From positions 1 to 36,143 of IMG/VR virus record IMGVR_UViG_3300047559_000122: 36,143 bases of DNA. One strand, written 5' to 3'. This DNA comes from a virus. Shown here one piece after another: positions 10,864-32,171 of this stretch. The notes beneath the pieces were generated by a model. That model was not told where the DNA came from. It saw only the letters and a list, made by a program, of their open reading frames with translations, and did no database searches. The first letter of the stretch is position 1; every line of letters starts with the position of its first letter. The translations under genes were made by a program, and so were the position numbers.

Positions 10864-10895
10864 TTAAAATAAAAAAGGGATCCGAAGATCCCTTT
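10864..10895 (-). terminator. Intrinsic terminator of tmRNA
   Basis: Read leftward, AAAGGGATC (from 10895) pairs with GATCCCTTT across a 4-nt loop and is followed by TTTTTTATTTT. The hairpin begins at the last A of the tmRNA CCA end, so the 3' end is presumably trimmed from it. Confidence 0.9.
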
Positions 10896-11310
10896 GGTGG
10901 AGGTGGTGGGTTTCGAACCCACGTCTTGCTCGTCCCAACCATAAAGGACTACACGTTTAGGTTAAGGTTTTTCATACCTTCCAAAATAGTTGGTTCCTAT
11001 TTTTCCATCGTCACCAACAACTGTGGAGGGTTCACTCAAATCGGTAGAACCCCAAACGAGACCTCCATTCCTTTTTGGGTAGAAACCACACCTTAGGGAC
11101 TTCTGTTTCAAGGTTATATGTCCACCGACCCATTGTAGGAATAACCTTAGGCTACTGCTACTTTAGAATCAACAGATACAAGACCCATTAATTCCATTTG
11201 TGAATAAACGTTGCCGTCTAAAAATGTATCTCCGTAGATTTAAGTGATAGGAAACATCTCACTACGTGCCCCGTATGACTGACTACGCCAATCAATTCCA
11301 AGTCACCCCC
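10895..11310 (-). ncRNA. ssrA: tmRNA (transfer-messenger RNA)
   Basis: The leftward RNA begins GGGGGTGACTTGGAATTGAT and ends with T-arm GTGGGTTCGAAACCCAC and CACCTCCACCA. The acceptor ends pair over 7 bp with a G3-U70 wobble and discriminator A, the identity elements for alanine charging. CCA is encoded. A resume codon GGC is expected at 11215-11213, about nt 96 (E. coli: nt 90), preceded by TAGAC (E. coli TAGTC). The frame from there runs 22 codons, GNVYSQ...DSKVAVA, to TAA at 11149-11147. The tag is long and ends VAVA, not the usual ALAA. tmRNA rescues stalled ribosomes and tags the product for proteolysis. It starts 2 nt after the stop of the gene at 11313. Confidence 0.93.
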
Positions 11311-11312
11311 GT

Positions 11313-11579
11313 TTATTTAATGTTCTGTGGTTTCTTACCACCACCATTAGATGTGCCACCATTTTTTGGTTTTGGTCTGTAATATTTCTTTTTCTTTGGT
11401 TTCGGTGAATCACCTAAATCCTCAGACAACTCGATCTCCTTCTTAATTTCAACACTTTTAGGTGTTGGTCTTACGGTGGTTGGTTTTGATTTAGTTTGTG
11501 GTCTTGGTGGAGGAGTATGTTTTACTTCCACTTTTTTAAAACCAAACAAACCTTTTAAAAATGCAATAATTTTTTTCAT
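11313..11579 (-). CDS. Small basic proline/lysine-rich protein, 88 aa
   Basis: The protein starts with an amphipathic helix MKKIIAFLKGLFGFKK, followed by low-complexity Pro/Lys/Thr-rich sequence (TPPPRPQTKSKP, PKPKKKKYYRPKPKNGG) and a Gly/Asn-rich tail. It lacks a lipobox. The first helix resembles membrane-active peptides; the tail is disordered and cationic. The stop codon is immediately before tmRNA, so the two are almost certainly co-transcribed and separated by RNA processing. The function is unknown. Confidence 0.6.
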   Translation of the reverse strand: MKKIIAFLKGLFGFKKVEVKHTPPPRPQTKSKPTTVRPTPKSVEIKKEIELSEDLGDSPKPKKKKYYRPKPKNGGTSNGGGKKPQNIK

Positions 11580-11625: not shown

Positions 11626-12291
11626 TCAAATGGTTACGGGTAGGTATTTCTCATAGAGTGCCTCAAAGAACAGTTTGTTCTTTAGCCACTTCTTGTCGGT
11701 CATACCAATTGACTTGTGAAATAGTTTAATTTTAGTTGTTACACCGACCTTTACTCCATCTAAATGATTCAGTAAACAGATCGGTAGGTCGTAGAAGTGA
11801 AACCCCCCAAACTGATCGTCAAATTGATGTTTTATTCTCTTCTTATGAATCATCATAAAGAGACCGTCAATGATTACAACTTCTTTAATTAAATCACCAA
11901 AAGACTCGGAATACTTAGATACATATCTTTTATTACCATTGATATGTCCGACTTGACCCTTCATTGAGTCCCTATCCTGCCACCATTGTCCCGATATGAG
12001 GTTATCAGTGCCGGCAAGACCAATAATCCCGTAATCAGGATTCCTGTCAAACATCTTTATAATTTTAGGGGTCAGATTCTTAGTCTCAAATTCGAGATCG
12101 TCATGAATAAATACGACAACGTCATTTGTAGAACTATTCAACCCCTCATTATAAACTTGAGTTAGTGATTTCTCACCATTATTCTCAATGAAAATGTATT
12201 CGTTTTTTGGGTGAGAAAAGAATTTTTTCACATGTTGAACATAGGTCTCATCAATACTTCGTGTTGAACAAACTACAGTTATTGTATTCAT
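11626..12291 (-). CDS. Glycosyltransferase family 2-like protein
   Basis: The protein of 221 residues has a GT-A-type N-terminus: ITVVCSTRSID, then YIFIENNGEKSLTQVYNEGL and DVVVFIHDDLEF, where HDD is the likely metal-binding DxD-like motif. IIGLAGTDNL and FGGFHFYDLPICL follow, typical of small GT2-like enzymes that act on sugars delivered as nucleotide sugars. It is the second sugar-modifying locus of the window. It may glycosylate virion protein, host surface glycan or DNA; the sequence does not discriminate. It is followed leftward by the tmRNA unit. Confidence 0.8.
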   Translation of the reverse strand: MNTITVVCSTRSIDETYVQHVKKFFSHPKNEYIFIENNGEKSLTQVYNEGLNSSTNDVVVFIHDDLEFETKNLTPKIIKMFDRNPDYGIIGLAGTDNLISGQWWQDRDSMKGQVGHINGNKRYVSKYSESFGDLIKEVVIIDGLFMMIHKKRIKHQFDDQFGGFHFYDLPICLLNHLDGVKVGVTTKIKLFHKSIGMTDKKWLKNKLFFEALYEKYLPVTI

Positions 12292-13167: not shown

Positions 13168-13244
13168 TGGTGGACCCAGAGGGACTTGAACCCCCGACCA
13201 ACTGATTATGAGTCAGCTGCTCTGACCAACTGAGCTATGGGTCC
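13168..13244 (-). tRNA. tRNA-Met(CAT)
   Basis: All four arms are present: acceptor GGACCC/GGGTCC, D-arm AGCTCAGTTGGTCAGAGC, anticodon loop CTCATAA, T-arm GGGTTCAAGTCCC. CCA is encoded. The G1-C72 pair rules out an initiator. A CAT anticodon could be elongator Met or, after lysidine modification, Ile. Confidence 0.92.
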
Positions 13245-13254
13245 CTTTATTTTG

Positions 13255-13326
13255 CTCCCCGAGATGGATTCGAACCATCGACCAATAGATTAACAGTCTA
13301 CTGCGCTACCGCTGCGCCATCGAGGA
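13255..13326 (-). tRNA. tRNA-Asn(GTT)
   Basis: Acceptor TCCTCGA pairs with TCGGGGA and the anticodon loop is CTGTTAA. The T-arm GATGGTTCGAATCCATC is intact. The discriminator is G and CCA is not fully encoded. Confidence 0.92.
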
Positions 13327-13332
13327 CTTTAG

Positions 13333-13405
13333 TAGGGAAGACAGGACTCGAACCTGCGACCCCTTGGTCCCAAACCAAGTACACTACCACCTGTGCTACT
13401 TCCCT
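13333..13405 (-). tRNA. tRNA-Pro(TGG)
   Basis: Acceptor AGGGAAG/CTTCCCT, anticodon stem CTTGG/CCAAG with loop TTTGGGA, and T-arm CAGGTTCGAGTCCTG are all present. CCA is not encoded. Confidence 0.92.
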
Positions 13406-13409
13406 ATTG

Positions 13410-13484
13410 GGGTTGAGGTGGGAATCGAACCCTGCGTCACGGTGAAGGGTTACTTCACTTGCTCTACCACTGAGCTACTCAACC
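13410..13484 (-). tRNA. Degenerate tRNA-like gene (anticodon AAC by position)
   Basis: The acceptor GGTTGAG/CTCAACC and D-arm GCTCAGTGGTAGAGC are good and GGGTTCGATTCCC marks the T-loop. Only three T-stem pairs form, because A50-A64 and C49-C65 are mismatched. The anticodon stem GTGAA/TTCAC closes loop GTAACCC, which would put AAC (Val) at 34-36 after a two-base position 26. The discriminator would be C. It may be a decaying tRNA or a divergent one; the amino acid is uncertain. Confidence 0.55.
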
Positions 13485-13488
13485 TATG

Positions 13489-13573
13489 CGGAGAGGGAGG
13501 GATTCGAACCCCCGGACCTGTTACAGTCAACGGTTTTCAAGACCGCCGCGATCGACCACTCTGCCACCTCTCC
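13489..13573 (-). tRNA. tRNA-Ser(TGA)
   Basis: A class II tRNA with long variable arm. Acceptor GGAGAGG/CCTCTCC, anticodon loop CTTGAAA, T-arm GGGGGTTCGAATCCCTC, discriminator G. Confidence 0.93.
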
Positions 13574-13576
13574 TGT

Positions 13577-13679
13577 AGTGGTAAGGAAGTGTTACGTCTA
13601 ACACTTCAATGTTTTCTACTAATTTTTTATGGGGTATGTACACTAACCATAAAATTGATTTTCGTCTTCTCTTACCACT
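13577..13679 (-). ncRNA. Candidate structured RNA between tRNA-Ser and tRNA-Asp
   Basis: The whole gap between two tRNAs can fold into a three-way structure. AGTGGTAAG (13577-13585) pairs perfectly with CTTACCACT (13671-13679). Inside, GAAGTGTTA (13586-13594) pairs with TAACACTTC (13599-13607) over a 4-nt loop, and TTTTATGG (13625-13632) pairs with CCATAAAA (13647-13654). Three perfect helices of 8-9 bp in 103 nt are unlikely by chance. It has no T-loop, so it is not a tRNA. The strand is taken from the flanking tRNAs. Confidence 0.6.
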
Positions 13680-13681
13680 TG

Positions 13682-13755
13682 CGGTATGGACGGGACTCGA
13701 ACCCGCGACCACTTGAGTGACAGTCAAGTATTCTAACCAACTGAACTACCACACC
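13682..13755 (-). tRNA. tRNA-Asp(GTC)
   Basis: Acceptor GGTGTGG/CCATACC, anticodon stem CTTGA/TCAAG with loop CTGTCAC, T-arm GCGGGTTCGAGTCCCGT, discriminator G. Confidence 0.93.
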
Positions 13756-13759
13756 TTAG

Positions 13760-13832
13760 TGACCCTGGAACGACTCGAACGTTCGACCGACTGCTTAGAA
13801 GGCAGTTGCTCTATCCACTGAGCTACAGGGCC
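13760..13832 (-). tRNA. tRNA-Arg(TCT)
   Basis: Acceptor GGCCCTG/CAGGGTC, anticodon stem CTGC/GCAG with loop CTTCTAA, T-arm GAACGTTCGAGTCGTTC. It reads AGA, the arginine codon most used by genes in this window. Confidence 0.92.
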
Positions 13833-13838
13833 ATAAAA

Positions 13839-13911
13839 AAGAGATCCGGGCCCAACTAGCCGCCCGTTGTGAAACGAAAAATAGACGGAAGGGCCCTTTT
13901 TAAGATCTCTT
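13839..13911 (-). ncRNA. Candidate structured RNA between tRNA-Leu and tRNA-Arg
   Basis: This 73-nt segment fills a tRNA-sized slot. Nested helices are visible: AAGAGATC/GATCTCTT at the ends, GGGCCC/GGGCCC next, CCGTC/GGCGG inside (one G-U), and CGTT/AACG at the tip. Read leftward it is followed by TTTTTT at the start of tRNA-Arg. It lacks anticodon and T-arm features. It may be a stable small RNA, a processing spacer or an elaborate attenuator. Confidence 0.55.
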
Positions 13912-13913
13912 AG

Positions 13914-13998
13914 TACCGAAGGCCGGATTCGAACCGGCACGGACATTACTGTCCAAGGGATTTTAAGTCCCTCATGGCTACCTTTTCATCACTTCGGC
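13914..13998 (-). tRNA. tRNA-Leu(TAA)
   Basis: A class II tRNA with long variable arm. Acceptor GCCGAAG/CTTCGGT, anticodon stem AGGGA/TCCCT with loop CTTAAAA, T-arm GCCGGTTCGAATCCGGC. It is first in the main leftward tRNA run, just behind a host-type promoter. Confidence 0.92.
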
Positions 13999-14013
13999 AA
14001 TTGTTAAACCTAC

Positions 14014-14025
14014 ATGTCAAAGAAC
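14014..14025 (-). promoter_or_regulatory. boxA-like element ahead of the tRNA run
   Basis: Read leftward the 12-mer is GTTCTTTGACAT, resembling the boxA antitermination signal (E. coli TGCTCTTTAACA) and the form common in flavobacterial rRNA leaders. It starts where transcription from the 14030 promoter should begin. An identical 12-mer occurs at 14527-14538. Confidence 0.5.
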
Positions 14026-14029
14026 ATAT

Positions 14030-14060
14030 CAAATATACGGGCAATAATCTTTAAAATCAA
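14030..14060 (-). promoter_or_regulatory. Bacteroidetes-type promoter of the tRNA run
   Basis: Leftward TTG (14058-14060), a 20-nt spacer and TATATTTG (14030-14037) match the Bacteroidetes housekeeping promoter. It faces tRNA-Leu and the following tRNA genes. Confidence 0.75.
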
Positions 14061-14073
14061 GATAGATAAAAAA

Positions 14074-14099
14074 AATCCCCCACATTTCTGAGGGGGATT
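14074..14099 (-). terminator. Intrinsic terminator after 14124 gene
   Basis: AATCCCCC and GGGGGATT form an 8-bp hairpin with a 10-nt loop; read leftward it is followed by a run of eight Ts. It ends the 14501-14124 gene and insulates the tRNA promoter. Confidence 0.88.
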
Positions 14100-14123
14100 C
14101 AACTATCGTTCCTTAACTAACTG

Positions 14124-14501
14124 TTAGTCAGTTAATACTTGTTTAGATTTTTTCACGGGTTCACACCCATCCTTATCAATTTTCATCAATCGATTCTCAA
14201 ACTTGTCAAACCTTGAGTCGATATACCGATAAATTTCATTCATGTTATGTTCACTGTTATTGTGTAAACTATCACAATACTCAATATTCTTATGATGTAG
14301 TTGATCTACTCTACTTATTTCACCATCTATTCGAAGGTGAATTTCTCTATGGTTATTTTCCATATCTCTGTATATTCCACCTATAGTCTCTTCGAAACCA
14401 TTGGAACGTTGTGTAACCTTAAACACACCCATCACAGCATACCCTAATCCGAGCAAACCGATCATTGAGAGCGCACCTAAAATAAATTCTAAATTTTCCA
14501 T
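14124..14501 (-). CDS. Membrane-anchored coiled-coil protein, 125 aa
   Basis: Residues ~5-28 (FILGALSMIGLLGLGYAVMGVF) form one transmembrane helix, with a short N-terminal tail. The remainder is charged, with heptad-like spacing and many His/Asn residues (DMENNHREIHLRIDGEIS, NEIYRYIDSRFDKFENRL), suggesting a coiled coil. No catalytic motif is seen. The topology resembles spanin-like or holin-accessory proteins, and the holin/endolysin pair lies nearby on the other strand, but this link is only positional. Confidence 0.65.
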   Translation of the reverse strand: MENLEFILGALSMIGLLGLGYAVMGVFKVTQRSNGFEETIGGIYRDMENNHREIHLRIDGEISRVDQLHHKNIEYCDSLHNNSEHNMNEIYRYIDSRFDKFENRLMKIDKDGCEPVKKSKQVLTD

Positions 14502-14526
14502 GTTTTTAAATTTTTAGATTTTGATT

Positions 14527-14538
14527 ATGTCAAAGAAC
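14527..14538 (-). promoter_or_regulatory. Second boxA-like 12-mer
   Basis: Leftward GTTCTTTGACAT is identical to 14014-14025. It lies 7 nt after the tRNA-Thr CCA end and 26 nt before the ATG at 14501. It may be boxA for read-through from tRNA-Thr, or a TTTG/TTGACA-type promoter element for the 14501 gene. Confidence 0.4.
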
Positions 14539-14544
14539 GATAGT

Positions 14545-14621
14545 TGGAGCCTCAGGAGGGATTCGAACCCCCGACAGGCTGATTACAAATCAGCTACTCT
14601 GGCCAACTGAGTTACTGAGGC
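14545..14621 (-). tRNA. tRNA-Thr(TGT)
   Basis: Acceptor GCCTCAG/CTGAGGC with encoded CCA, anticodon stem GCTGA/TCAGC with loop TTTGTAA, T-arm GGGGGTTCGAATCCCTC. It stands apart from the main tRNA run, upstream of the 14501 gene. Confidence 0.93.
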
Positions 14622-16070: not shown

Positions 16071-17399
16071 TTAAATGAGGGGTAAATTTTTGGAAATTTC
16101 CATGTTCCCCTCATTTATTTTTAATAAAACTTCTTTATCCTGAACAATATTACCCATTAAAATCTCATCACTAATAAAGTCTTCGCACAGATTTTGGATG
16201 ATTCTTTTAATAGGTCTCGCACCATACTCCTCTTCAGAGTTTCGTTTAATAATTTCATCGATGACACTTTTATCAAAAGTAATTTTGTATGAGTTATCAA
16301 CCAATCTACTATAAAGTGAACTCATTTCGAGTTGTACAATTTTACGAAGAGATTTATCATCTAACTTATTGAATACAATAATATCGTCAATACGATTCAA
16401 GAATTCAGGAGTAAACTGTTGTTTCAAAGATTTTCTGATGATAGAATCTTTAACCCTCTCTTGATTTTCTGAGTCCGTAAAACCAACACCACCTCCAAAA
16501 TCCGAAACCTTCTTTGCACCAATGTTCGATGTCATGATGATTAGGGTATTGGTGAAATTTACTTTTCTACCAAACGAATCGGTTAAGTGTCCCTCATCCA
16601 ATATCTGAAGTAGGATGTTGAATACATCTTTATGTGCCTTCTCGATCTCGTCAAATAGGACTACCGAAAAAGGGTTGTTTTTAATCTTTTCAGTCAATTG
16701 ACCTCCTTCATCATAACCAACATAACCCGGAGGTGAACCTATCAATTTAGATACGTTATGTTTTTCCATGAATTCACTCATGTCAACTCTCACAATTTTT
16801 TCGGGATCACCAAAAAGAGTGTTTGCTAGTGTTTTCGCTAGATGAGTTTTACCGACACCCGTAGATCCTAAGAACATAAATGAACCGATCGGTTTGTTAC
16901 TACTCTTAACCCCAACTCGATTTCTTCGGATTGATTTTGAAATTTTAGTGACAGCATCATCCTGACCAATAACATTCTTAGATATTGTTTTTTCTAAATT
17001 TAATAGGTTTTTACTTTCCTTAGTATCCAACTTTGAAATTGGAACACCGGTCATATTGGTGATGAGGTCATATACGTCTTCTATGGTCACCTCCTTTTTA
17101 TTAATCTTTTGTTCGTCATTCCACTTTTTCTTTTCGGTTTCGAGTTTCTTAATGATTTTCTTTTCCTCGTCTCGAAGTTGTGCCGCTTGCTCGTAATCTT
17201 GAGACTTAACCACACTTAATTTTTTTGTTTTGATGGATTCTGCCTCTTTTTTTAACTTTTCGATAGAATCAGGAACTTTTACATTAATCTTCTTTTCCGA
17301 ACCCAACTCATCCAATACATCAATTGCCTTATCAGGAAACTGTTTATCTGTTATGTATCTCTTAGAAAGATTAACTATGGTTTCAATAACGTTTTCAAT
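16071..17399 (-). pseudogene. clpC: ClpC-type AAA+ unfoldase, C-terminal part (frameshifted)
   Basis: The frame resumes ClpC homology at ENVIETIVNLSKRYITDKQF. A UVR-like middle region follows (KSQDYEQAAQLRDEE), then the second AAA+ module: Walker A GSTGVGKTHLAKTL, Walker B SVVLFDEIEKAH, arginine-finger region FTPEFLNRID, and the small D2 domain. GGGVGFTDS carries the VGF tripeptide at the place of the ClpP-docking loop, which ClpB lacks. The homologous frame has no good start; MFSKNQQ at 17468 reads out-of-frame sequence of the upstream part. Compared with ClpC proteins, 6-7 residues are missing at the junction, so about 20 nt seem to be lost. Confidence 0.85.
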
Positions 17400-18066
17400 C
17401 CTCGTAAGAAGACTTAAGATTATAAAGAATGTCCACGGTTTCAGTAACTGTTGGTTCTTGGAGAACAATTTTTTGGAATCTTCTCACTAACGCACCGTCT
17501 TTTTCGATATTCTTTTTGAATTCGTCGAAGGTGGTCGCACCAATACATTGAATTTCACCACGTGCCAATGCGGGTTTTAGGATATTAGCTGCATCCATTG
17601 AACCTGACGCATTACCCGCACCCACCATAGTGTGAATTTCATCAATAAAAACAATTACGTTGGGGGCGTCCACTAATTCGTTAAGAATTGCCTTAATCCT
17701 CTCCTCAAACTGACCACGGTACTTAGTTCCCGCAACCAATGAGGTGAGATCCAAAGACATAATTCTTTTATCTATGAGATTTGTTGGACAGTTACCATTT
17801 GTGATTAATAATGCCAACTTCTCCACTAATGCGGATTTACCCACACCCGCATCACCAACGATTACAACATTGTTTTTCTTTTTCCGTGATAATATCTGAG
17901 CAATACGCATCACTTCTTTATCCCTTCCAATAATGGGGTCTATGAGTCCCTCAGACGCTAAACGTGTGAGATCTCTGGAGAAATTGTCAAGTACGGGCGT
18001 ATTCGATCCTCTTTTACCTTTTCTCTGTTGTTGGGGGGTTCCCCCTTCAAAAAAATCTACGGACAT
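17395..18066 (-). CDS. clpC: ClpC-type AAA+ unfoldase, N-terminal part (first ATPase module)
   Basis: This part has the D1 module of a Clp/Hsp100 unfoldase: TPVLDNFSRDLTRLA linker, GRDKEVMRIAQIL, Walker A GDAGVGKSALVEKL, Walker B VIVFIDEIHTMVG, and RRFQKIVLQEPTV. The usual Clp_N substrate domain is absent; the protein begins MSVDFFEGGTPQQQRK just ahead of the D1 linker. The frame ends YNLKSSYED-stop, at the point where ClpC proteins continue to the D1 small domain. Without D2 the product would be unlikely to hexamerise and translocate normally. It is divergent from hsp20. Confidence 0.88.
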   Translation of the reverse strand: MSVDFFEGGTPQQQRKGKRGSNTPVLDNFSRDLTRLASEGLIDPIIGRDKEVMRIAQILSRKKKNNVVIVGDAGVGKSALVEKLALLITNGNCPTNLIDKRIMSLDLTSLVAGTKYRGQFEERIKAILNELVDAPNVIVFIDEIHTMVGAGNASGSMDAANILKPALARGEIQCIGATTFDEFKKNIEKDGALVRRFQKIVLQEPTVTETVDILYNLKSSYED

Positions 18067-18250: not shown

Positions 18251-18628
18251 ATGATTACTTTATTTAAAAGAGACCCATTTTTCACTAACTTCTTAGATTC
18301 AGTTTTTGAGACTGAAACGACTGACCTTTGGAAAGGATTCGTTAACACCAACAAATCAGTGGATGGTGATGGTGTTACTTTGGAGTTTGTTGTACCAGGT
18401 TTATCTAAAGAAGATATCTCTGTTTACGTTGAGGACAATAAATTGAAGGTTAGTTACACCGCGGAAATTACAAAAAGTAAGTACGTAGAACCTTTTGAAA
18501 GAACGTATACTTTGGGAGAGGACTTAGATGATAAGAAGATTTCCGCTAAGGTTGAGAACGGTGTCCTAACACTCACAGTACCTAAGAGTAAGAAAAAAAA
18601 TTCACAACGAGAAATTTCGATATCTTAA
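18251..18628 (+). CDS. Hsp20 small heat-shock protein
   Basis: The 125-residue protein has an alpha-crystallin domain at about 33-118: VTLEFVVPGLSKEDISVYVE, LKVSYTAEITKSKYVEPFERTYTL, ISAKVENGVLTLTVPK. VENGVLTLTVP is the A-x-x-x-n-G-v-L conserved motif of the family. The ending REISIS provides an I-x-I oligomerisation motif. These ATP-independent holdases keep unfolded proteins soluble; relatives occur in several T4-like marine phages. The start is preceded by an A-rich stretch without Shine-Dalgarno. Divergence from clpC suggests shared control. Confidence 0.93.
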   Translation: MITLFKRDPFFTNFLDSVFETETTDLWKGFVNTNKSVDGDGVTLEFVVPGLSKEDISVYVEDNKLKVSYTAEITKSKYVEPFERTYTLGEDLDDKKISAKVENGVLTLTVPKSKKKNSQREISIS

Positions 18629-23268: not shown

Positions 23269-25047
23269 ATGGATAAGAATAAACTAATACAACTTAAGGA
23301 GTACGCAAAGATTCTAAAGGACACTCCTTATGCGTTGAAGACATATCTACAGACATACGATAATACTCAAAAAAAGTATGTACCATTAGAGTTATTTCCC
23401 GATCAAATCGAATTGATTAATGATTACGATAACTATAATGAAAATATTACCCGTAAGTATCGTCAGGCGGGGGTATCCACAGTAACTGCTGCGTGGTTAT
23501 CGAAGAAGATTCAAACCGCAAGTCCTGACAACCCTGAGAGGGTTCTAATCATTGCCAACAAGAGGGATACTGCGATCGAAATGGCGAATAAAATTCGTGG
23601 TTTTTTAGATCAATGGCCTGAGTGGATTAATGTTGGGTTCTCGCCCGATAAAAACTCGGAAAGTCGTTATAGAATGAATAATGGTTGTGAGGTGAAGGCG
23701 GTTGCGACATCAGCGGATGCACTTCGTGGTTATACACCAACAGTTCTTGTATTTGATGAGGCGGCATATATCGAAGCGGGAGAGGATTTTTGGGCTGCGT
23801 GTATGGCATCCTTATCAACGGGTGGTAAGGTAATTCTAATTTCCACACCAAACGGATATGATCCAATATACTACGGTGTTTATGATCAGGCGTTAAGAGG
23901 GATGAATGATTTTAAAATCACCGATTTAAGATGGTTTAAAGATCCTCGTTATGCGGGTGATTTAAAATGGTTAAAGGTTGATGATATCATCCATTATATG
24001 TTAAACAGAGAACAATATAACGATGATGAAATCATATTAGAAGAAGGGTGGGAGAGATACGTTGAATTATTAGAACAAGGTTATAAACCATATTCCAATT
24101 GGTTTGAGAATATGGCCAAAAAATTCAAATACGATAAGAGGAAGATTGCACAGGAATTGGAGTGTGACTTCTTAGGTTCAGGTGATGGAGTAATCCCAAA
24201 TGACATTCAAGAAAAAATTAGAAGAGACCATATCAAAGAACCTATTGAAAAATACATGCAGGGTAACTTTTGGTTATGGAAAGAACCTGTTGAGGGTCAT
24301 CGATACATTATGGGTGTTGATGTTTCAAGGGGTGATAGTGCAGACGCGTCTTCAATATCGGTAATTGACTTTGATGAAAGGGAACAAGTTGCCGAGTATA
24401 TTGGGAAGATTCCACCCGACGATTTAGCATCTGTTGTGTATAAATGGGCAACACTCTATAAATCATTTGTTGTAATCGATATTACGGGTGGTATGGGTAT
24501 TGCTACTTCTAGAAAACTCCAAGAAATGGGGTATAAGGATCTCTATATTGATGGGGTAAATTCCATGAATATATGGGAGTATAACAAAAAAGGTCAGGAT
24601 AAGATACCGGGTATTAATTTCAACAATAAAAGAACTCAGATAGTCGCAGCATTCGAAGAACAACTGAGACATGGGTTTGGTGTACGTTCAAGTCGTTTAT
24701 TAAATGAGTTGAACACGTTCGTTTATGTTAATGGTAGACCTGACCATATGAAGGGTGCACACGATGATGCCATCATGGCAATGGCTATTGCGATGTATGT
24801 TGGTGACATATCATTTGCACACTTAAAGAGAAATGATAATGCCAATAAGGCCATGCTTGATTCGTGGTTATTATCGGAAAGAACATATGAAACAAAAAAA
24901 TCCTTCTATTCACACGGGACTGCATTTGATGCAATAGGTTCAATGTCCATGGATGGTCCGAGACAACCCCAAATGGGTAACAATATGTCTAGGGAAGATT
25001 ATCAAGAATATTCATGGTTGTTTGGTAGAAAAGTCAAACAACTTTAA
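23269..25047 (+). CDS. Terminase large subunit (T4 gp17-like)
   Basis: The 592-residue protein has an N-terminal ATPase: an adenine-binding-like FPDQIELI near 43, a deviant Walker A YRQAGVSTVTAA near 64 (Lys of GKT replaced, an Arg upstream), Walker B TVLVFDEAAYIE near 160, and motif III LISTPNG near 195. The C-terminal RNase H-like nuclease follows: MGVDVSRGDSADASSISVIDF near 350, FVVIDITGGMG near 405, and GAHDDAIMAMAIAM near 500, supplying the acidic metal ligands. The motor packages DNA into proheads through the portal. Position two genes upstream of the protease fits the T4 order. Confidence 0.96.
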   Translation: MDKNKLIQLKEYAKILKDTPYALKTYLQTYDNTQKKYVPLELFPDQIELINDYDNYNENITRKYRQAGVSTVTAAWLSKKIQTASPDNPERVLIIANKRDTAIEMANKIRGFLDQWPEWINVGFSPDKNSESRYRMNNGCEVKAVATSADALRGYTPTVLVFDEAAYIEAGEDFWAACMASLSTGGKVILISTPNGYDPIYYGVYDQALRGMNDFKITDLRWFKDPRYAGDLKWLKVDDIIHYMLNREQYNDDEIILEEGWERYVELLEQGYKPYSNWFENMAKKFKYDKRKIAQELECDFLGSGDGVIPNDIQEKIRRDHIKEPIEKYMQGNFWLWKEPVEGHRYIMGVDVSRGDSADASSISVIDFDEREQVAEYIGKIPPDDLASVVYKWATLYKSFVVIDITGGMGIATSRKLQEMGYKDLYIDGVNSMNIWEYNKKGQDKIPGINFNNKRTQIVAAFEEQLRHGFGVRSSRLLNELNTFVYVNGRPDHMKGAHDDAIMAMAIAMYVGDISFAHLKRNDNANKAMLDSWLLSERTYETKKSFYSHGTAFDAIGSMSMDGPRQPQMGNNMSREDYQEYSWLFGRKVKQL

Positions 25048-25082
25048 AATGTCGAAAAAAAATCGTATATTATAAAGTTTAA

Positions 25083-25090
25083 TATTTATT
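25083..25090 (+). promoter_or_regulatory. TATTTATT octamer (portal)
   Basis: The octamer lies 3 nt before the portal ATG at 25094, with the same AAT spacer as the 3266 copy. Confidence 0.65.
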
Positions 25091-25093
25091 AAT

Positions 25094-26920
25094 ATGGCAA
25101 AACAAAACTTGACAGTTTATCAAAGACTTACAAAGGTATTCGGGTTCCAAACGGATAGACCGACTGCACCCCCACAATATCGTTTTGATAAGGATAAACT
25201 GTTAAAAACAGATAGTAGAGAGGATTACGAAAGAGAACTATTACAACAACAACAGTCACAGTATATTGCTGACAAGTGGACAAAGTTGGATCAATCTCTT
25301 TATAATCAATCGGTTTATTATGAACCGAATAGACTTGCCGCATATTACGATTATGAATCTATGGAGTTTACTCCGGAGATTTCCGCTGCGTTAGATATCT
25401 ATTCAGAAGAATCTACAACAATGTCCGAAAAAGGACAAATTTTAACTATCTACTCTGAATCTAAAAGAGTAAAAAATATTTTAGAAGATTTATTCTATAA
25501 TCAACTTGACATCAACACCAACCTACAAATGTGGTGTAGAGGTGTGTGTAAGTATGGGGACGATTTTGTGTATTTAAAAATCGATCCAAATAGAGGTGTT
25601 GTTGGATGTCAACAATTACCAAACATTGAGATTGAGAGACACGAAGGCGCCGCATCTCAAGTACACAAATCAGAACCTGCCGCGGGGGTCAAGATGCCAA
25701 GTAGAGAATTAAGATTTACATGGAAGAATAAGGACATGGAATTCCAAGCATGGGAAGTTGCTCACTTTAGAATTTTAGGTGATGACAGAAAACTTCCATA
25801 CGGAACTTCTATGTTGGATAAAGTAAGACGTATTTGGAAACAGTTACTTCTTGCGGAAGATGCGATGTTAATTTATAGAACCTCGAGAGCACCCGAAAGA
25901 AGGGTATTCAAAGTATTCGTAGGTAACATGGATGATAAAGACATCGAAGCGTACGTACAACGTGTTGCCAATAAATTCAAGAGAGATCAGATTGTAGATC
26001 AAAGAAACGGACAAGTAGATATGAGATACAACCAAATGGCGGTTGATCAAGATTATTTCATCCCTGTTCGTGATCCGTCACAATCATCACCTATCGAAAC
26101 TTTACCCGGAGCACAAAACTTGGGTGAAATTGCGGATATTGAGTACATCCAAAAGAAACTTCTCGCAGCACTTAGAATACCAAAAGCATTCTTAGGGTTT
26201 GAAGAGATCGTTGGTGAAGGTAAGAGTCTTGCATTGATGGATATTCGTTTCGCAAGAACAATCAATAGAATACAGAAGTCACTTATTCAAGAGTTGAATA
26301 AGATCGCATTAATACATCTTTATCTTTTGGGATTGGAAGATGAATTAAATAATTTCAGTTTATCGCTGACAAACCCGTCAGCACAGTCAGATTTACTTAG
26401 AATAGAACAGTGGAAAGAAAAGATCACACTCTATAAGGATGCGACCTCAGATCAATCACAAATTGGTATTCAACCTGTTTCACATACGTGGGCCAAAAAG
26501 AACATTCTTGGTATGAGTGATAACGATGTGATTCTTGACTTACAACAACAGAGACTTGAGAGAGCACTCGGTGCTGAATTGGGTATCACTCAAAACATCA
26601 TTAAGAGAACAGGTGTCTTTGATGAGGTTGATAAGAAGTACGGTATTCCTGAGGAGGAGAGACAAGCTGCCGAACAAGGTGCAGCACCTGATGCTGGTGG
26701 AGGTGCCGGCGGAATGGATATGGGTGGGGGCACACCACCACCACCTGCGGGTGATACCGGAGGAGGTGGGGATGAACCATTAGCTGAGGGAAAAAAAATA
26801 AAAATTCTAAGTGAGTTAGGGGATCAAGATGCAGATTTTGATGATCTTTTTGATGTTCAGAAGGCACAACAGAATATTTATGAGATAGAGAATAAAATTA
26901 AAGATATTATACAAGAGTAA
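25094..26920 (+). CDS. Portal protein (T4 gp20-like)
   Basis: The 608-residue protein has the conserved core of T4-type portals: YDYESMEFTPEISAALDIYSEE near 85-108, MWCRGVCKYGDDFVYL near 148, the HFRILGDDRKLPYGTSML stretch near 225, YRTSRAPERRVFKVFVGN near 260, and a crown/stem region ending FLGFEEIVGEGKSLALMDIRFARTI near 380. The C-terminus has a Gly/Pro-rich linker (GGGAGGMDMGGGTPPPPAG) followed by a short helical tail EGKKIKILSELG. The dodecameric portal nucleates the prohead and is the DNA channel. It lies next to the 26923 gene with a 2-nt gap. Confidence 0.95.
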   Translation: MAKQNLTVYQRLTKVFGFQTDRPTAPPQYRFDKDKLLKTDSREDYERELLQQQQSQYIADKWTKLDQSLYNQSVYYEPNRLAAYYDYESMEFTPEISAALDIYSEESTTMSEKGQILTIYSESKRVKNILEDLFYNQLDINTNLQMWCRGVCKYGDDFVYLKIDPNRGVVGCQQLPNIEIERHEGAASQVHKSEPAAGVKMPSRELRFTWKNKDMEFQAWEVAHFRILGDDRKLPYGTSMLDKVRRIWKQLLLAEDAMLIYRTSRAPERRVFKVFVGNMDDKDIEAYVQRVANKFKRDQIVDQRNGQVDMRYNQMAVDQDYFIPVRDPSQSSPIETLPGAQNLGEIADIEYIQKKLLAALRIPKAFLGFEEIVGEGKSLALMDIRFARTINRIQKSLIQELNKIALIHLYLLGLEDELNNFSLSLTNPSAQSDLLRIEQWKEKITLYKDATSDQSQIGIQPVSHTWAKKNILGMSDNDVILDLQQQRLERALGAELGITQNIIKRTGVFDEVDKKYGIPEEERQAAEQGAAPDAGGGAGGMDMGGGTPPPPAGDTGGGGDEPLAEGKKIKILSELGDQDADFDDLFDVQKAQQNIYEIENKIKDIIQE

Positions 26921-26922
26921 CG

Positions 26923-27654
26923 ATGGCAACATTTGGACACGTAAAAAATAAGATATTGGTTAAACTGACTGAGTCTTACGGAAAGAAAGATTTTAAGGAT
27001 AACTTAAAAAAGTACTTCCAACCAATTATGAAAAACAACACCCTTAAAGAGATGTATTCCCTTTATGAGGATATTGAGACTATGAATTTTGATGATAAGG
27101 AAACCGCACAATTATATGTGGAGGAACTATCAAAGGTTTTAAAAGATAGATACAATGAGGTTAATACATCTTTATTTGATTTAAATGAGTCATTAAAGGA
27201 TGTGGTAAAAACAGATAACCCCATTTACGAATCTTTAGATGTATTATCATGTCCCGATAAATTGGGGAATATCTCATCAAAGGTTATCGCAAAGAAAACT
27301 TTAGTAGAACATTTAATAAAAACTAAGACTTCAGACGAATTGACTGTTGAACAGGGAGTAAACGAAAGTTTATTAAACTCTGTGTTGGTTAACAATTTCA
27401 ATGTAAGTTTTGATAAAACATTAAGTGAGGGTGAAAAGGAGAAATTAAAATCAATCCTTTCAATGACTCAAGAAGAGGTTAATACTAAAACAAAAGAACT
27501 ACAGGAAACCATTAATGGTAGATTGGTTGAATTAATTAACGAAGACGAAGGTTTTAGAACTAAGGCGGATCAAGTGAGAAAAGAAGTACTTGAGATGACA
27601 CCCAGTAAATATAATCTACATCGATTAGAGGATTTGGTGGAAGGTTTGTCTTAA
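26923..27654 (+). CDS. Putative prohead core protein, helical, 243 aa
   Basis: A highly charged, almost entirely helical protein begins MATFGHVKNKILVKLTESYG. It has no recognised family. It occupies the slot between portal and prohead protease where T4 encodes the small core proteins gp67 and gp68. Multiple L-x-E sites (KLTE, SLDE-like, LVEL) would allow degradation during maturation. It is probably co-transcribed with the portal gene and ends at a strong terminator. Confidence 0.65.
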   Translation: MATFGHVKNKILVKLTESYGKKDFKDNLKKYFQPIMKNNTLKEMYSLYEDIETMNFDDKETAQLYVEELSKVLKDRYNEVNTSLFDLNESLKDVVKTDNPIYESLDVLSCPDKLGNISSKVIAKKTLVEHLIKTKTSDELTVEQGVNESLLNSVLVNNFNVSFDKTLSEGEKEKLKSILSMTQEEVNTKTKELQETINGRLVELINEDEGFRTKADQVRKEVLEMTPSKYNLHRLEDLVEGLS

Positions 27655-27660
27655 ATATTG

Positions 27661-27686
27661 AAGGTCCCTTTCGGGACCTTTTTTAT
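27661..27686. terminator. Terminator between core protein and rpsU
   Basis: AAGGTCCC (27661-27668) and GGGACCTT (27673-27680) form an 8-bp hairpin followed by TTTTTT rightward. Leftward only a weak T-stretch is present. It serves the portal unit. Confidence 0.9.
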
Positions 27687-27874
27687 TTCTGTTCTTGATC
27701 TCGTAAAAATTGTATGTATTCTGCCTTTTGTTTCTGTAAACGTTTGGAAACTGAAGGTTTAGTAAATTGTTGTCGTTCACGTAACAATTGTACCTGTTTA
27801 GTATTTCTCACTTTAGACTTTAATTTCTTTAGTGCTTGTTCAATGTTCCCATTCTTTACGTTTACTATTAGCAT
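27683..27874 (-). CDS. rpsU: Ribosomal protein bS21 homologue
   Basis: From the ATG at 27874 the protein reads MLIVNVKNGNIEQALKKLKS, matching the bS21 N-terminus (V-x-V-x-x-G-x-I-E-x-A-L-r-x-l-K). RNTKQVQLLRERQQFTKPSVSKRLQKQK provides the basic, R/K-rich C-terminal half. An ATG at 27901 would add nine residues, but bS21 proteins begin near the MLIVNV point. bS21 binds near the 16S anti-Shine-Dalgarno end on the 30S platform. In Bacteroidota it helps hide that sequence. A phage copy could replace host bS21 and bias initiation. It lies opposite to the head module, with an octamer-like TATTTATG upstream. Confidence 0.9.
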   Translation of the reverse strand: MLIVNVKNGNIEQALKKLKSKVRNTKQVQLLRERQQFTKPSVSKRLQKQKAEYIQFLRDQEQK

Positions 27875-27898
27875 ATTTTTCTTTTTTTGTATTATATA

Positions 27899-27906
27899 CA
27901 TAAATA
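27899..27906 (-). promoter_or_regulatory. Octamer variant TATTTATG (rpsU)
   Basis: Leftward TATATTTATG lies 24 nt before the bS21 start at 27874. It differs from the consensus in the last base. The stretch between is an A-rich AAAAAAAGAAAAAT without Shine-Dalgarno. Confidence 0.45.
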
Positions 27907-27948
27907 TAACAAAAAAATTTGATTTAGAAAATATTTTTCCTTATCTTT

Positions 27949-27956
27949 TATTTATT
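27949..27956 (+). promoter_or_regulatory. TATTTATT octamer (gene 27987)
   Basis: The octamer lies 30 nt before the ATG at 27987 and 19 nt before an out-of-frame ATG at 27976, which opens a 15-codon frame. Confidence 0.45.
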
Positions 27957-27986
27957 CACCATAAAAAGAGTTAAGTATGAAATTAA

Positions 27987-28412
27987 ATGAAATTAGGTCG
28001 TTATATACCCTTAGGGGACTATAAAAACGTAAAAATCGGTTATGGCACGATAGACCATAAAAATTTAAAGACAATATATCTGTCATTCACTTCATGGTTA
28101 GAACCTAACGATGACGCTTACAACTTCGACACGATAGTAAGATCTTCCCGTAATAATATTAAAAAACTGATTTACAATTTAGGTATGGATATATTCCTAC
28201 CGGAATCAATTGTGGATTTGGACGTTAGGACTAACGGAATTAAGAAAGAAAAACGATCGTTTATGAATTTGGAGATTACACTATATGTGGGTAAACCAAT
28301 TAACATAAAGGATAAAGACTTGAAAAATGATATCAGTAATCTTATGAAAGTGGTTATTGATGACTGTTTAAACGACGATCGTATCTTTAATTTTAACAAA
28401 AAGAAAAAATAA
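27987..28412 (+). CDS. RusA-like/DUF-type small protein candidate, 141 aa
   Basis: It starts MKLGRYIPLGDYKNVKIGYG and has alternating strands and helices, with LSFTSWLEPNDD, LDVRTNGIKKEKRSFMNLEITLYV, and a C-terminal KNDISNLMKVVIDDCLNDDRIF. The segment DISNLMKVVIDDCLN followed by DDR resembles the 'D-x-x-N-L-x-K-x-x-x-D-x-L' core of RusA-family Holliday-junction resolvases, where these aspartates bind metal. The rest is too divergent to be sure. If correct it would resolve branched DNA before packaging, fitting its place beside the head genes. An upstream ATG at 27976 is in another frame. Confidence 0.55.
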   Translation: MKLGRYIPLGDYKNVKIGYGTIDHKNLKTIYLSFTSWLEPNDDAYNFDTIVRSSRNNIKKLIYNLGMDIFLPESIVDLDVRTNGIKKEKRSFMNLEITLYVGKPINIKDKDLKNDISNLMKVVIDDCLNDDRIFNFNKKKK

Positions 28413-28426
28413 CTTCGATTACGATG

Positions 28427-28434
28427 TATTTATA
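28427..28434 (+). promoter_or_regulatory. TATTTATA octamer (prohead protease)
   Basis: The octamer lies 19 nt before the ATG at 28454; ACTATAGG lies between. Confidence 0.5.
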
Positions 28435-28453
28435 GTAATAAAACTATAGGTAC

Positions 28454-29137
28454 ATGAAAGTATTAGGTCCTAAAGAAACAGGTAAGGGTATCCTCATCGA
28501 ATACGATGCGGGTTTTGTGTCACCTGAAGAAAATAAGAAAATCATTTCTGAAATGAAGAACGTTGACTTCTCTGAAGACATAGTTCTTTATGCTGTTTTA
28601 CAAAAGTTCGATACACCGAATAAAAACGGTAGAATATATCCTGAAACCATTCTTAAAAGAGAAATGGACAAATATCAGGGTGTCATCAATAAAGGTTCGG
28701 CACTAAACGAACTAAACCACCCATCATCTTCTCTTATTGATTTAGATAGAGTTTCTCACGTTATTACTGAAACGTGGTGGGAAGGTAAAATCCTTATGGG
28801 TAAACTAAAGTTACTTACATCCCCTGGTTGGAAAAAGATGGGTATTGTCTCAACTAAAGGTGATCAGGCGGCGATGTTACTTCAAAATGGGGTGACTTTA
28901 GGTATTTCTTCAAGAGGTGTTGGTTCACTTAAATCAGAAAAAGGACAAAATATCGTACAGGACGATTTTGAATTGGTTTGTTTTGATTTAGTGTCATCAC
29001 CATCAACCCCTGGCGCCTACGTATTCACAGACCCATCAGAAAGGGAGAAGTACGAGGAGTCTATTGAGGAGAAACCAATCGTAGATGATAGAATGAAAAA
29101 ATTAATGGGAAAAATGGATAGTTTTCTATCCCGATAA
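28454..29137 (+). CDS. Prohead core protease (T4 gp21-like)
   Basis: The 227-residue serine protease matches the T4 gp21 family. YAVLQKFDTPNKNGRIYP (about 46-63) is the conserved N-terminal block. ELNHPSS holds the likely catalytic H89 and GVTLGISSRGVGSL the likely nucleophile S152. FDLVSSPSTPGA near 178-190 is the conserved third block. The family cleaves after (L/I)-x-E to remove head-targeting peptides and scaffold and to mature capsid proteins. It lies directly upstream of scaffold and capsid genes, as in T4. Its presence makes the (L/I)-x-E pattern of other proteins meaningful. Confidence 0.95.
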   Translation: MKVLGPKETGKGILIEYDAGFVSPEENKKIISEMKNVDFSEDIVLYAVLQKFDTPNKNGRIYPETILKREMDKYQGVINKGSALNELNHPSSSLIDLDRVSHVITETWWEGKILMGKLKLLTSPGWKKMGIVSTKGDQAAMLLQNGVTLGISSRGVGSLKSEKGQNIVQDDFELVCFDLVSSPSTPGAYVFTDPSEREKYEESIEEKPIVDDRMKKLMGKMDSFLSR

Positions 29138-29191
29138 ATAATTTTTCTGTGATTAGTATATCATAAAACTTAATTTTTCTGAAACAACAGA

Positions 29192-29199
29192 TATTTATT
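29192..29199 (+). promoter_or_regulatory. TATTTATT octamer (scaffold)
   Basis: The octamer lies 20 nt before the scaffold ATG at 29220, followed by an A-rich stretch. Confidence 0.5.
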
Positions 29200-29219
29200 A
29201 ATAAAATCAAAATAAAAAG

Positions 29220-30446
29220 ATGAGCAAAAAATCCATTTTAGAACAAGCATTGCTTCAAGTACAAGATCTTGAGGAGGCGGTTAAAGCAAACGCAAAAGGT
29301 ATACTTGCTTCAACTATGAAGGAAGAACTAAACGAAGTGCTTAAAGAATCATTGGAAGAAGAGGACGTTGAAGGTCCTGAAGGAGTAGAAGAGGATATGC
29401 CAATCTCTGAACAACCATTTGGTGATGAAGAGGAAGGAAATGACGACGAAGCTTCAATAAACGACGAACCATCGGACGACGACATTGATCCTGATTTAGA
29501 AGGAGGTGACGAAGATATGGGTATGGATTCAGAAGAAGATTCTGAAGAAGACGATCTTGAGTTACCATCTATGGATGATGAAGGTGAAGATGACGAAGTA
29601 CTCGATATGACTGACGCTAGTGACGAAGAAGTTATGAAGGTTTTCAAATCAATGAAACCTGAAGACGGAATTGTTGTGAAGAAGGACGGAGGTAATATCG
29701 AATTAGAAGATGGTGACGACGAATACATTATCAAACTCGACGGAGATGAAGAAGAGGTCGCAGAAGGTGATTGGAACGAAGAAGAGGAGTGTCACGAATG
29801 TGGTGATTCCGCTATGGAGGAAGAAGTTACCGAAGATGAGACTGTCTACGAAATCGACTTAGGGGACGATGATGATGAAGAAATTTCCGAAGAATTATCT
29901 GAAGATGACGCTGAGATGGAAGTCGATGCAGATTCTGAGGGTTCCGAGGAAGGTGAAGTCGAATCTGATATAGACGAAGCATCAAGAACAATGGGTAATG
30001 ATGTTAGAGGTGAAGGACCACGTCAAGGTAAAAAATACAAGTCAGGACGTGCGGAGATCAACGAAGAAGTTGAGACTTTAAAGAAACAAAACGCAGAATA
30101 CAAGAAAGCGTTAGTGTTGTTTAAAGAGAAACTTAATGAGGTTGCTGTATTCAACGCCAATTTAGCATACGCTACGAGATTGTTCACTGAGCATTCGACT
30201 ACTCGTCAGGAAAAATTAGATATTCTTAAGAGATTTGACTCTGTCTCATCTTTAACAGAATCTAAATCAACCTATAAAACTATCGCGGGTGAGTTAGGTT
30301 CTAAAAAGAATATCGCTGAGGCGGTCGTTAATAAGATCGCATCAACCCCGACAACATCTTCATCTCAAGAAGTACTTTCAGAGGCCAAAGCATATGAGAG
30401 TCCTCAATTCAAGAGAATGAAGGATTTGATGTCAAAATTAAAATAA
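29220..30446 (+). CDS. Prohead scaffold/core protein (T4 gp22-like role)
   Basis: The 408-residue protein begins with the helix MSKKSILEQALLQVQDLEEA, is extremely rich in Asp/Glu from ~45 to 255, and ends in a coiled-coil region (EINEEVETLKKQNAEYKKAL, LFKEKLNEVAVFNANLAY, about 275-315) and a C-terminal helix KRMKDLMSKLK. The acidic middle and coiled-coil end, plus the slot between prohead protease and major capsid protein, fit the T4 gp22 scaffold. It contains several L-x-E sites for maturation cleavage. A CHECGDSAMEEE segment has two close cysteines. Sequence identity to gp22 cannot be claimed from reading alone. Confidence 0.85.
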   Translation: MSKKSILEQALLQVQDLEEAVKANAKGILASTMKEELNEVLKESLEEEDVEGPEGVEEDMPISEQPFGDEEEGNDDEASINDEPSDDDIDPDLEGGDEDMGMDSEEDSEEDDLELPSMDDEGEDDEVLDMTDASDEEVMKVFKSMKPEDGIVVKKDGGNIELEDGDDEYIIKLDGDEEEVAEGDWNEEEECHECGDSAMEEEVTEDETVYEIDLGDDDDEEISEELSEDDAEMEVDADSEGSEEGEVESDIDEASRTMGNDVRGEGPRQGKKYKSGRAEINEEVETLKKQNAEYKKALVLFKEKLNEVAVFNANLAYATRLFTEHSTTRQEKLDILKRFDSVSSLTESKSTYKTIAGELGSKKNIAEAVVNKIASTPTTSSSQEVLSEAKAYESPQFKRMKDLMSKLK

Positions 30447-30476
30447 TAAAATAAAAAAAATTAATACCAAATTAAA

Positions 30477-32171
30477 ATGGGAGCATTATTAGAAAGTGGT
30501 ATGGTTGGTAACATCGGTCTTAAGCACTTGAGAGTTATCAAAGAAGATACCATTAAAAAATGGGATGACTTAGGATTCCTTGAGGGATTAAACGGTCACC
30601 AAAAAGACAACATCGCACAATTGTATGAAAACCAAGCTTCATACTTGATTAACGAAGCAGCTGTATCTGATTCATCAGGTTCTTTTGAAACAGTTGTTTT
30701 CCCAATCATCAGAAGAGTTTTCTCTAAATTGTTAGCGAACGACATCGTATCAGTACAAGCAATGAACTTACCTATTGGTAAATTGTTCTACTTCGTACCT
30801 AAAATTCAGGAAAGATCAAACGGAGCTCACTTAGAGCCTTATGGAATGCCTGGTAACAATGCCGCTAACGGTGGTTACACAGGAAGAAATCTTTATGATA
30901 GATTCTATGAGGAGAGTGATGACGCATCAGAAGGTTTATTTGATTACTCAAAAGGTGATTTCACTACTGAGTCATTAACTGCCGGTGCATTCGTTACTTT
31001 CTCTAACGGTGCAGCAACTAACTCAACAACTGCATTAGGTGCTGACGCTGCTAGCGTTATCATCGTGGCTTCAGGTTTCACAAATGCAGGTTCAAGTAAG
31101 ATTGTAGGTCCTAACGGTAACGAGATGGACACTGAAGAATTCTTGGCTTCATTAGAGGTTACTTACGGTGGTGTTAAGAGAAACTTTAACGTAGTTACTC
31201 AAAAGTACGGTAAGGGTATCGTTGAATATGGTACTACAGGTGCTGGTGTAACAGGTTCTTATGACAAAATCGTTGACCAAGATGGTCTTCTTTATTTGAA
31301 TGTAGACTTACAGACTTATTCAGCATCTACAGGTTTTGCTGATGGTGGTAATGGTGCCGTTCCTGGTGACTTCACATTATCTTACAGACAATATGGATCT
31401 TTGGAATTCGAAGATGCGATTGGTGAAGTTTCTTTCGAATTAGAGTCAGTAACTGTTTCTGTAACTGAAAGAAAATTAAGAGCTAGCTGGTCTCCTGAAT
31501 TGGCTCAAGACGTATCTGCATTCCACAACATCGATGCTGAAGCTGAGTTAACTGCATTGTTATCTGAGCAAATCGCTGCTGAGGTTGATAGAGAAATCTT
31601 AAGAGACTTAAGAAAAGGTGCCGCTTGGAACTTGAAGTGGGATTACAATGAGTGGAAGTATGGTGGTTCTAACGGAGCTACTTTACAAGGTTACACTCAA
31701 AAGGATTGGAACCAAACGTTGATCACTAAGATTAACCAATTATCGGCTCAAATCCATAAAACTACACTAAGAGGTGGTGCTAACTGGATCGTTGTTTCTT
31801 CTGAAGTTTCAGCTGTATTCGATGACCTTGAGTACTTCCACGTATCTAACGCAGGTGCTGAGCAAGACCAATACAACATGGGTATTGAGAAAGTTGGTAC
31901 TTTAGCTGGTAGATATCAGGTGTATAGAGATCCTTACTTCCCTGCTGGTAAGATCTTAGTTGGTCACAAAGGTAAATCTTTATTGGACGCTGGTTACATC
32001 TACGCTCCATATGTACCTTTACAGTTGACTCCAACTATGTACAATCCATTTAACTTCACTCCGATCAAGGGTATCATGACCAGATACGCTAAGAAGATGG
32101 TTAACAACAGATACTTCGGTGTGATCAATGTTAGTGGTTTACAAACATTTAGCTTGGATACTTTAAGATAA
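30477..32171 (+). CDS. Major capsid protein (T4 gp23-like)
   Basis: The 564-residue protein matches the gp23 family: SFETVVFPIIRRVFSKLLAND (about 70-89) and VSVQAMNLPIGKLFYF (about 92-107) in the N-terminal arm, ERKLRASWSPELAQD near 338, and FTPIKGIMTRYAKKMVNNRYFG near the C-terminus. Residues 1-60 form the propeptide ending in YLINE; cleavage after E60 would match the gp23 maturation site (T4 after residue 65). The gene uses C-ending codons (AAC, TTC, TAC) more than its neighbours, typical of very highly expressed genes. No octamer precedes it, so it probably shares the scaffold transcript. A strong terminator follows. Confidence 0.97.
   Translation: MGALLESGMVGNIGLKHLRVIKEDTIKKWDDLGFLEGLNGHQKDNIAQLYENQASYLINEAAVSDSSGSFETVVFPIIRRVFSKLLANDIVSVQAMNLPIGKLFYFVPKIQERSNGAHLEPYGMPGNNAANGGYTGRNLYDRFYEESDDASEGLFDYSKGDFTTESLTAGAFVTFSNGAATNSTTALGADAASVIIVASGFTNAGSSKIVGPNGNEMDTEEFLASLEVTYGGVKRNFNVVTQKYGKGIVEYGTTGAGVTGSYDKIVDQDGLLYLNVDLQTYSASTGFADGGNGAVPGDFTLSYRQYGSLEFEDAIGEVSFELESVTVSVTERKLRASWSPELAQDVSAFHNIDAEAELTALLSEQIAAEVDREILRDLRKGAAWNLKWDYNEWKYGGSNGATLQGYTQKDWNQTLITKINQLSAQIHKTTLRGGANWIVVSSEVSAVFDDLEYFHVSNAGAEQDQYNMGIEKVGTLAGRYQVYRDPYFPAGKILVGHKGKSLLDAGYIYAPYVPLQLTPTMYNPFNFTPIKGIMTRYAKKMVNNRYFGVINVSGLQTFSLDTLR

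Follow-up and report, generated by a model that had tools for sequence, protein, structure and literature searches.

Trans-translation in Phages and Bacteria

Genes for tmRNA (ssrA) have been reported in 402 of 18,146 phage genomes (PMC9004378), and the purpose they serve there is still largely a matter of speculation in the literature. The marine phage Melnitz carries one, for which tag-and-degrade recycling was proposed by its authors, although that tmRNA is a two-piece molecule accompanied by a riboswitch (PMC9004378). Large phages encoding both tmRNA and SmpB have been described in a study of huge phages, from whose text the words ClpP and ssrA are absent (PMC7162821), and virus-encoded ClpP has been documented in a survey of jumbo phages, which ties the enzyme to attack on host proteins and mentions neither tmRNA nor ClpC (PMC7824862). 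Mycobacteriophage tmRNAs (ET08, Bxz1 group) resemble the gene considered here in being phage-encoded amid tRNA genes and in having a long tag (25 aa in ET08, ATDTDATVTDAEIEAFFAEEAAALV), the sequence of which is nonetheless unrelated. In Mesoplasma florum, a longer ssrA tag is paired with a different protease, Lon (PMC9382460); this system is cellular and its tag ends in NYAFA, whereas the candidate reader in the phage is a viral ClpC-ClpP. Another close likeness is to the one-piece tmRNAs of Bacteroidota (Rfam RF00023), with which the phage gene shares the fold, the G3-U70 pair, the PK1 pseudoknot and a GGC resume codon after (U)A(A/G)AC, so that glycine comes first. The tags themselves differ, those of the hosts having 9-10 residues, mostly of the form G[EN]xx(Y/F)A[LM]AA, and those of the phages 20-22 residues ending in VAVA, VAA or VEVA.

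The phage gene was found in a viral stretch of 36,143 nucleotides (IMG/VR record IMGVR_UViG_3300047559_000122), referred to here as the window. Phage tmRNAs, huge-phage SmpB and jumbo-phage ClpP were already known separately (PMC9004378; PMC7162821; PMC7824862), and what is new is their combination with this tag; no report joining a tag, ClpC and ClpP in one phage was found in the open-licence literature.

The Phage and its Probable Host

The window is recognised as viral from its T4-like head genes, located on the plus strand at 23269..32171. These include the terminase large subunit (23269-25047) and the gp23 major capsid protein (30477-32171), both identified by sequence search, together with a probable portal (25094-26920) and a probable gp21-type prohead protease (28454-29137), assigned by position and appearance. 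The best full-length named match of the capsid protein is Rhodothermus phage RM378. On the minus strand, ARAGORN detects nine tRNA genes (Met, Asn, Pro, Val, Ser, Asp, Arg, Leu and Thr) at 13168..14621. The host of this T4-like phage is likely a member of the Bacteroidota, flavobacterial or other. The cellular relatives found for the ClpP of the clade, with search patterns that favour close relatives, are all Bacteroidota, and upstream of the tmRNA most of the related phages carry motifs of the TAnnTTTG type, which is typical of Bacteroidota promoters.

The tmRNA Gene

A complete one-piece tmRNA gene lies on the minus strand at 10895-11310. It had been proposed in a first-pass annotation made from the letters alone, and is borne out both by ARAGORN and by RF00023 (81.7 bits, E 2.2e-30, gathering score 47), the match covering the full model (positions 1-374); the score is lower than the 103-172 bits obtained by Bacteroidota host tmRNAs. 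In a BLAST comparison with named phages, matches were limited to the short tRNA-like ends. The acceptor stem, GGGGGUG paired with CACCUCC, includes the G3-U70 wobble of alanine identity, and the 3' CCA is encoded. Across the 24 tmRNA sequences compared, the G3-U pair is invariant, as is the long P2-type helix; compensatory changes occur in the acceptor and T stems (for instance G5-C to A5-U), and PK1 pairing is kept, with compensatory changes in two pairs of its first stem, where gene nt 48-52 pair with nt 64-68 (11243..11263, minus strand). Taken together, the compensatory changes in these three elements and the invariant P2-type helix fit a folded tmRNA and not a relic. Besides PK1, the gene has a conserved A 4 nt before the resume codon and an open, stop-ended tag frame. 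As part of the explanation considered best, the window tmRNA would be functional, and would be alanylated and bound by SmpB and add its tag in cells. Directly after the CCA end, an intrinsic terminator is found on the same strand at 10871..10894 (GGGATC-UUCG-GATCCC and a T run), and a hairpin with a T run occurs 3' of the tmRNA in nearly all relatives.

The tag frame occupies 11147..11215 on the minus strand and comprises 22 codons, GNVYSQMELMGLVSVDSKVAVA, closed by UAA at gene nt 162-164 (11147-11149). The resume codon GGC (11213-11215) starts at gene nt 96 (window position 11215) and is immediately preceded by UAGAC at nt 91-95 (11216..11220). A GGC resume codon near nt 96 after TAGAC, with a 22-codon frame ending in DSKVAVA, had also been claimed in the first-pass annotation, and this placement was upheld by a covariance-model search, in which the resume codon of the Rfam model (GCa) falls on this GGC and not elsewhere, by comparison with host tmRNAs and by 73 related contigs. 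In E. coli, A86, located 4 nt upstream of the resume codon, determines the frame (PMC2481249); its counterpart, the A at -4 within UAGAC, is invariant among the phage tmRNAs. The context also matches that of Bacteroidota tmRNAs, which resume at GGC after AAAC (UUUAAAC followed by GGC GAA). The tag reported by ARAGORN, VDSKVAVA (nt 138-164), is in the right frame and starts 14 codons late. The 22-codon frame is preferred over it because of the Rfam alignment, the host-like UAGAC before GGC, the family of 73 contigs and the third-position bias described below, and is well supported. Eight relatives were checked with ARAGORN, and for four of them it made no tmRNA call, so this class of tmRNA, misread or missed by the program, is under-annotated.

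The Tag Peptide

Of the 29 Bacteroidota tmRNAs read, 27 encode a tag of 9 residues and two a tag of 10; the tag ends in A[LM]AA, mostly ALAA, in 28 and in SMAA in one. The window tag is more than twice as long (22 against 9-10 residues) and ends in AVA, not in the (A)L/M-A-A of a canonical ssrA degron; close identity with the host tag was found in none of the 29. The range of 8-15 residues initially given as typical of bacteria holds for the host phylum, whereas viruses range more widely: in 65 other viral tmRNAs, as read by ARAGORN, tags have 9-31 residues with a median of 13, eight of them at least 20, and 44 end in LAA. The description of the tag as long and unusual is therefore sound in relation to the host, and the notion that its length is unprecedented was dropped given these viral tmRNAs (up to 31 residues) and ET08 (25). 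The 22-residue tag is long, with company among phages, and is far from that of the host. An apparent tag of 36 residues, GVNNADYESAGFTAEDFAQMDGESLYHGSERKPAAV, was observed in a frame read by hand in the tmRNA of LR756508.1, a 484-kb metagenomic phage (92434-92880, locus L372), where the ARAGORN tag call is GRRKPLSW.

When IMG/VR was searched with a degenerate pattern for the beginning of the tag, 79 contigs matched, and in 73 of them the match continues as a frame of 20-22 codons, a recurrence that is not due to chance. These frames encode one peptide family with the consensus G[ND]VYxxME..G...VA(V)A, exemplified by GNVYNNMEVAGLLATSKVAA, GNVYKNMEIAGILATSNVAVA and GNVYSQMEVLGLVSTPSTVEVA. The C-termini in the clade are VAA, which is found in many, AVA, EVA, SVA or VVA, and in one relative AVS. 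A stricter search with a 3'-end DNA pattern found nothing. The motif is absent from the tmRNAs of 395 Bacteroidota genomes, and the tag pattern from the huge-phage records LR745206, LR756502, LR756504 and LR756508. A cellular origin of the tag was considered and rejected, as the one pattern match in the 395 genomes belongs to an unrelated peptide with no tmRNA ends nearby.

Coding sequences with 20-22 codons, of which 46 distinct ones were compared, show a pattern of change that points to constraint at the level of the peptide. Substitutions at codon positions 1, 2 and 3 number 202, 45 and 563 in the 20-codon group and 517, 255 and 1070 in the 21-codon group, with a weaker third-position bias in the 22-codon group (83, 56 and 97). 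Nonsynonymous codon differences are far fewer than under random placement in the three groups (221 vs 561, 796 vs 1255 and 111 vs 161, respectively), and all differences in length amount to whole codons.

Phage-Encoded ClpC, ClpP and SmpB

Approximately 5 kb from the tmRNA, the window encodes a ClpC-type double-AAA+ unfoldase on the minus strand (16071..18066), identified from Pfam domains and motifs and a structure-database match. Its best solved-structure match is ClpC (440 bits, vs 374 for ClpB), and it combines two AAA+ modules and a UVR-type middle region with a VGF ClpP-docking loop and the pore loops GTKYRG and GYVG. No match to the adaptor-binding Clp_N domain was found in the window protein, which begins just before the D1 module; the open frames are mostly 668-712 aa long, with a few truncated, as against 810-818 aa in solved ClpC structures. 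In the window, the gene is split into two ORFs, 17395-18066 (223 aa) and 16071-17468 (465 aa), which overlap at 17395-17468. The frame break, near 17395-17410, is possibly an assembly or sequencing error, and the frame is single and intact, with about 672 aa, in relatives (for example L222 and L231). A docking loop of the form [VIL]GF is present at all 30 loci examined, and the D1 and D2 pore loops at nearly all, the exceptions being cut or interrupted frames. At one locus (L206, on the 162-kb contig 3300000439_000004), the frame is seemingly interrupted by an intein-like stretch, SEYEVLTDDGFVDIESLHE...

A ClpC-type gene is found in 42 of the 50 records searched, which comprise the window, phages with a tmRNA of this type and a small number of phages related by terminase, in whose contigs none is seen. 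These phages are related, and the counts of co-occurrence taken from them are not independent. By comparison, none of 27 unrelated tmRNA-bearing viral contigs (54-302 kb) has such a gene. Full-length ClpP is encoded in all five searched contigs of at least 200 kb and in two of 171-176 kb, with scores of 187-200 bits and an invariant S128/H153/D202 triad. One of these two (G009), whose terminase shares 87% identity with that of the window, ends before the expected tmRNA site. ClpP domain matches in 10 of the 27 control phages were discarded, as they reach 35-106 bits with partial domain coverage, vs 187-200 in the clade, and are probably head-maturation-type peptidases. SmpB, matched over its full domain, occurs in eight of 49 records, all six loci fetched having a DKR...KKRD tail, and in at least three phages it directly follows the tmRNA, 354-381 nt from the tag start. 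Neither ClpP nor SmpB was seen in the window, a 36-kb fragment. The larger relatives carry the tmRNA with its tag together with ClpC and ClpP, and in some of them (G048 and G051) SmpB completes the chain.

The association of this tmRNA with ClpC and ClpP is not obligatory. A 181-kb contig (G052) bears the tmRNA, with neither ClpC nor ClpP found, and LR745206 and LR756502 carry ClpC and ClpP with no tmRNA of this class detected, so the two proteins are also of use where the tag is lacking. The ClpP of these two phages (LR745206.1 and LR756502.1; 635-642 kb) shares 64% and 47% identity with a ClpP of the clade, and for their ClpC the identity with the window protein is 63% and 61%.

Proposed Role of the Tag

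The sequences contain the gene, its frame, a tag conserved across the clade and distinct from that of the host, and co-encoded ClpC, ClpP and SmpB; from these we infer that the tag would be recognised by ClpC-ClpP. It is thus proposed, with belief and doubt in equal measure, that the phage may own a branch of trans-translation whose tag would feed a phage ClpC-ClpP. Ribosomes stalled during infection would be entered by alanyl-tmRNA with SmpB, either that of the host or, in some relatives, the phage's own, and translation would resume at GGC, so that the stalled protein would gain (A)GNVYSQMELMGLVSVDSKVAVA in place of the host's (A)GExNYALAA, with a predicted C-terminus of AGNVYSQMELMGLVSVDSKVAVA. 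The long conserved tag would then act as a private C-degron, presumably engaged through the pore loops of the phage ClpC. As this unfoldase has no adaptor-binding domain, substrates would enter the pore directly, a route for which a long tail with hydrophobic parts would be well suited. Degradation would be carried out by ClpP, probably that of the phage in the larger relatives and that of the host otherwise, and the phage would in this way rescue ribosomes and recycle failed proteins itself without competing for the host's ClpX. The nearest precedent for such a pairing is the longer tag of Mesoplasma florum with Lon as its reader (PMC9382460). A broader reading is offered more tentatively, with doubt somewhat the stronger, namely that a lineage of large Bacteroidota phages may possess a self-contained pathway of rescue and disposal, running parallel to the host's ssrA-ClpXP route and not feeding it, and composed of tmRNA, SmpB in some, a private degron of 20-22 residues, the ClpC without its N-terminal domain and ClpP. 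With the tag, unfoldase and peptidase, and sometimes SmpB, forming a set distinct from that of the host, phage privatisation of trans-translation becomes directly testable, and if the proposal is true, the set would be an orthogonal degron-protease pair.

The suggestion in the first-pass annotation that rescued products may be redirected to another protease gains independent support from the ClpC of the clade, the ClpP of its larger contigs and the occasional SmpB; its appeal to the VAVA ending does not hold by itself. Engineered variants of the E. coli ssrA tag ending in LVA, AAV and SVA serve as degradation tags (PMC9382460) and many relatives end in VAA, so the VAVA end alone does not exclude ClpXP, and host ClpXP may still accept tags ending in VAA, which is near LAA. 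These variants, together with the small hydrophobic C-termini (VAA, AVA) of most relatives, speak for the main alternative, possible if rather doubtful, in which the tmRNA is an ordinary supplementary copy that boosts trans-translation, the tag is read by host ClpXP or other host proteases, and ClpC and ClpP serve takeover of the host or chaperoning with Hsp20. The many phages that have tmRNA without ClpC (none of the 27 controls encoding it), as well as LR745206 and LR756502 with the converse, also fit this alternative. It accounts poorly, however, for a 20-22-residue peptide of one family kept by selection when 9 residues suffice for the host, and for the equally kept N-terminal GNVYxxME, which is distant from the C-terminal residues contacted by ClpX.

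It is improbable that the tmRNA just frees ribosomes, for example those stalled by host defences that cleave mRNA or tRNA, with the tag leading to aggregation, sequestration or some other fate. The nine tRNA genes beside the tmRNA would fit an island for the protection of translation, and the hydrophobic MELMGL within the tag and the Hsp20 chaperone nearby would agree with such a fate, yet the clade is strongly linked to ClpC and ClpP, and the tag retains the small terminal residues that are usual in degradation tags. Finally, despite the ARAGORN output and a score below the host range, it is very hard to credit that the true tag is VDSKVAVA or that the gene is a decaying copy lacking a functional frame, given that UAGAC and GGC agree with both the hosts and the Rfam alignment, that conservation begins at GGC and extends over 20-22 codons, and that acceptor, T-arm and PK1 pairs are maintained through compensatory changes.

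Neighboring Genes

The Hsp20 small heat-shock chaperone adjoins clpC on the plus strand at 18251..18628 (Pfam PF00011, E 1.1e-18). On the minus strand, a lysine- and proline-rich ORF of 88 aa (11313..11579) ends 2 nt before the tmRNA, with which it is probably co-transcribed. Related ORFs occupy the same place in four relatives (L094-L096 and L098), and a small ORF of this kind has this position only within the subclade of the window. Elsewhere in the window, a glycosyltransferase (Pfam PF13712) is found at 11626-12291, and the genes at 904-2463 and 97-903 look by eye like a carbamoyltransferase of the NodU/TobZ type and an FkbM-type methyltransferase, which together suggest that the phage modifies glycans of a surface or of the virion.
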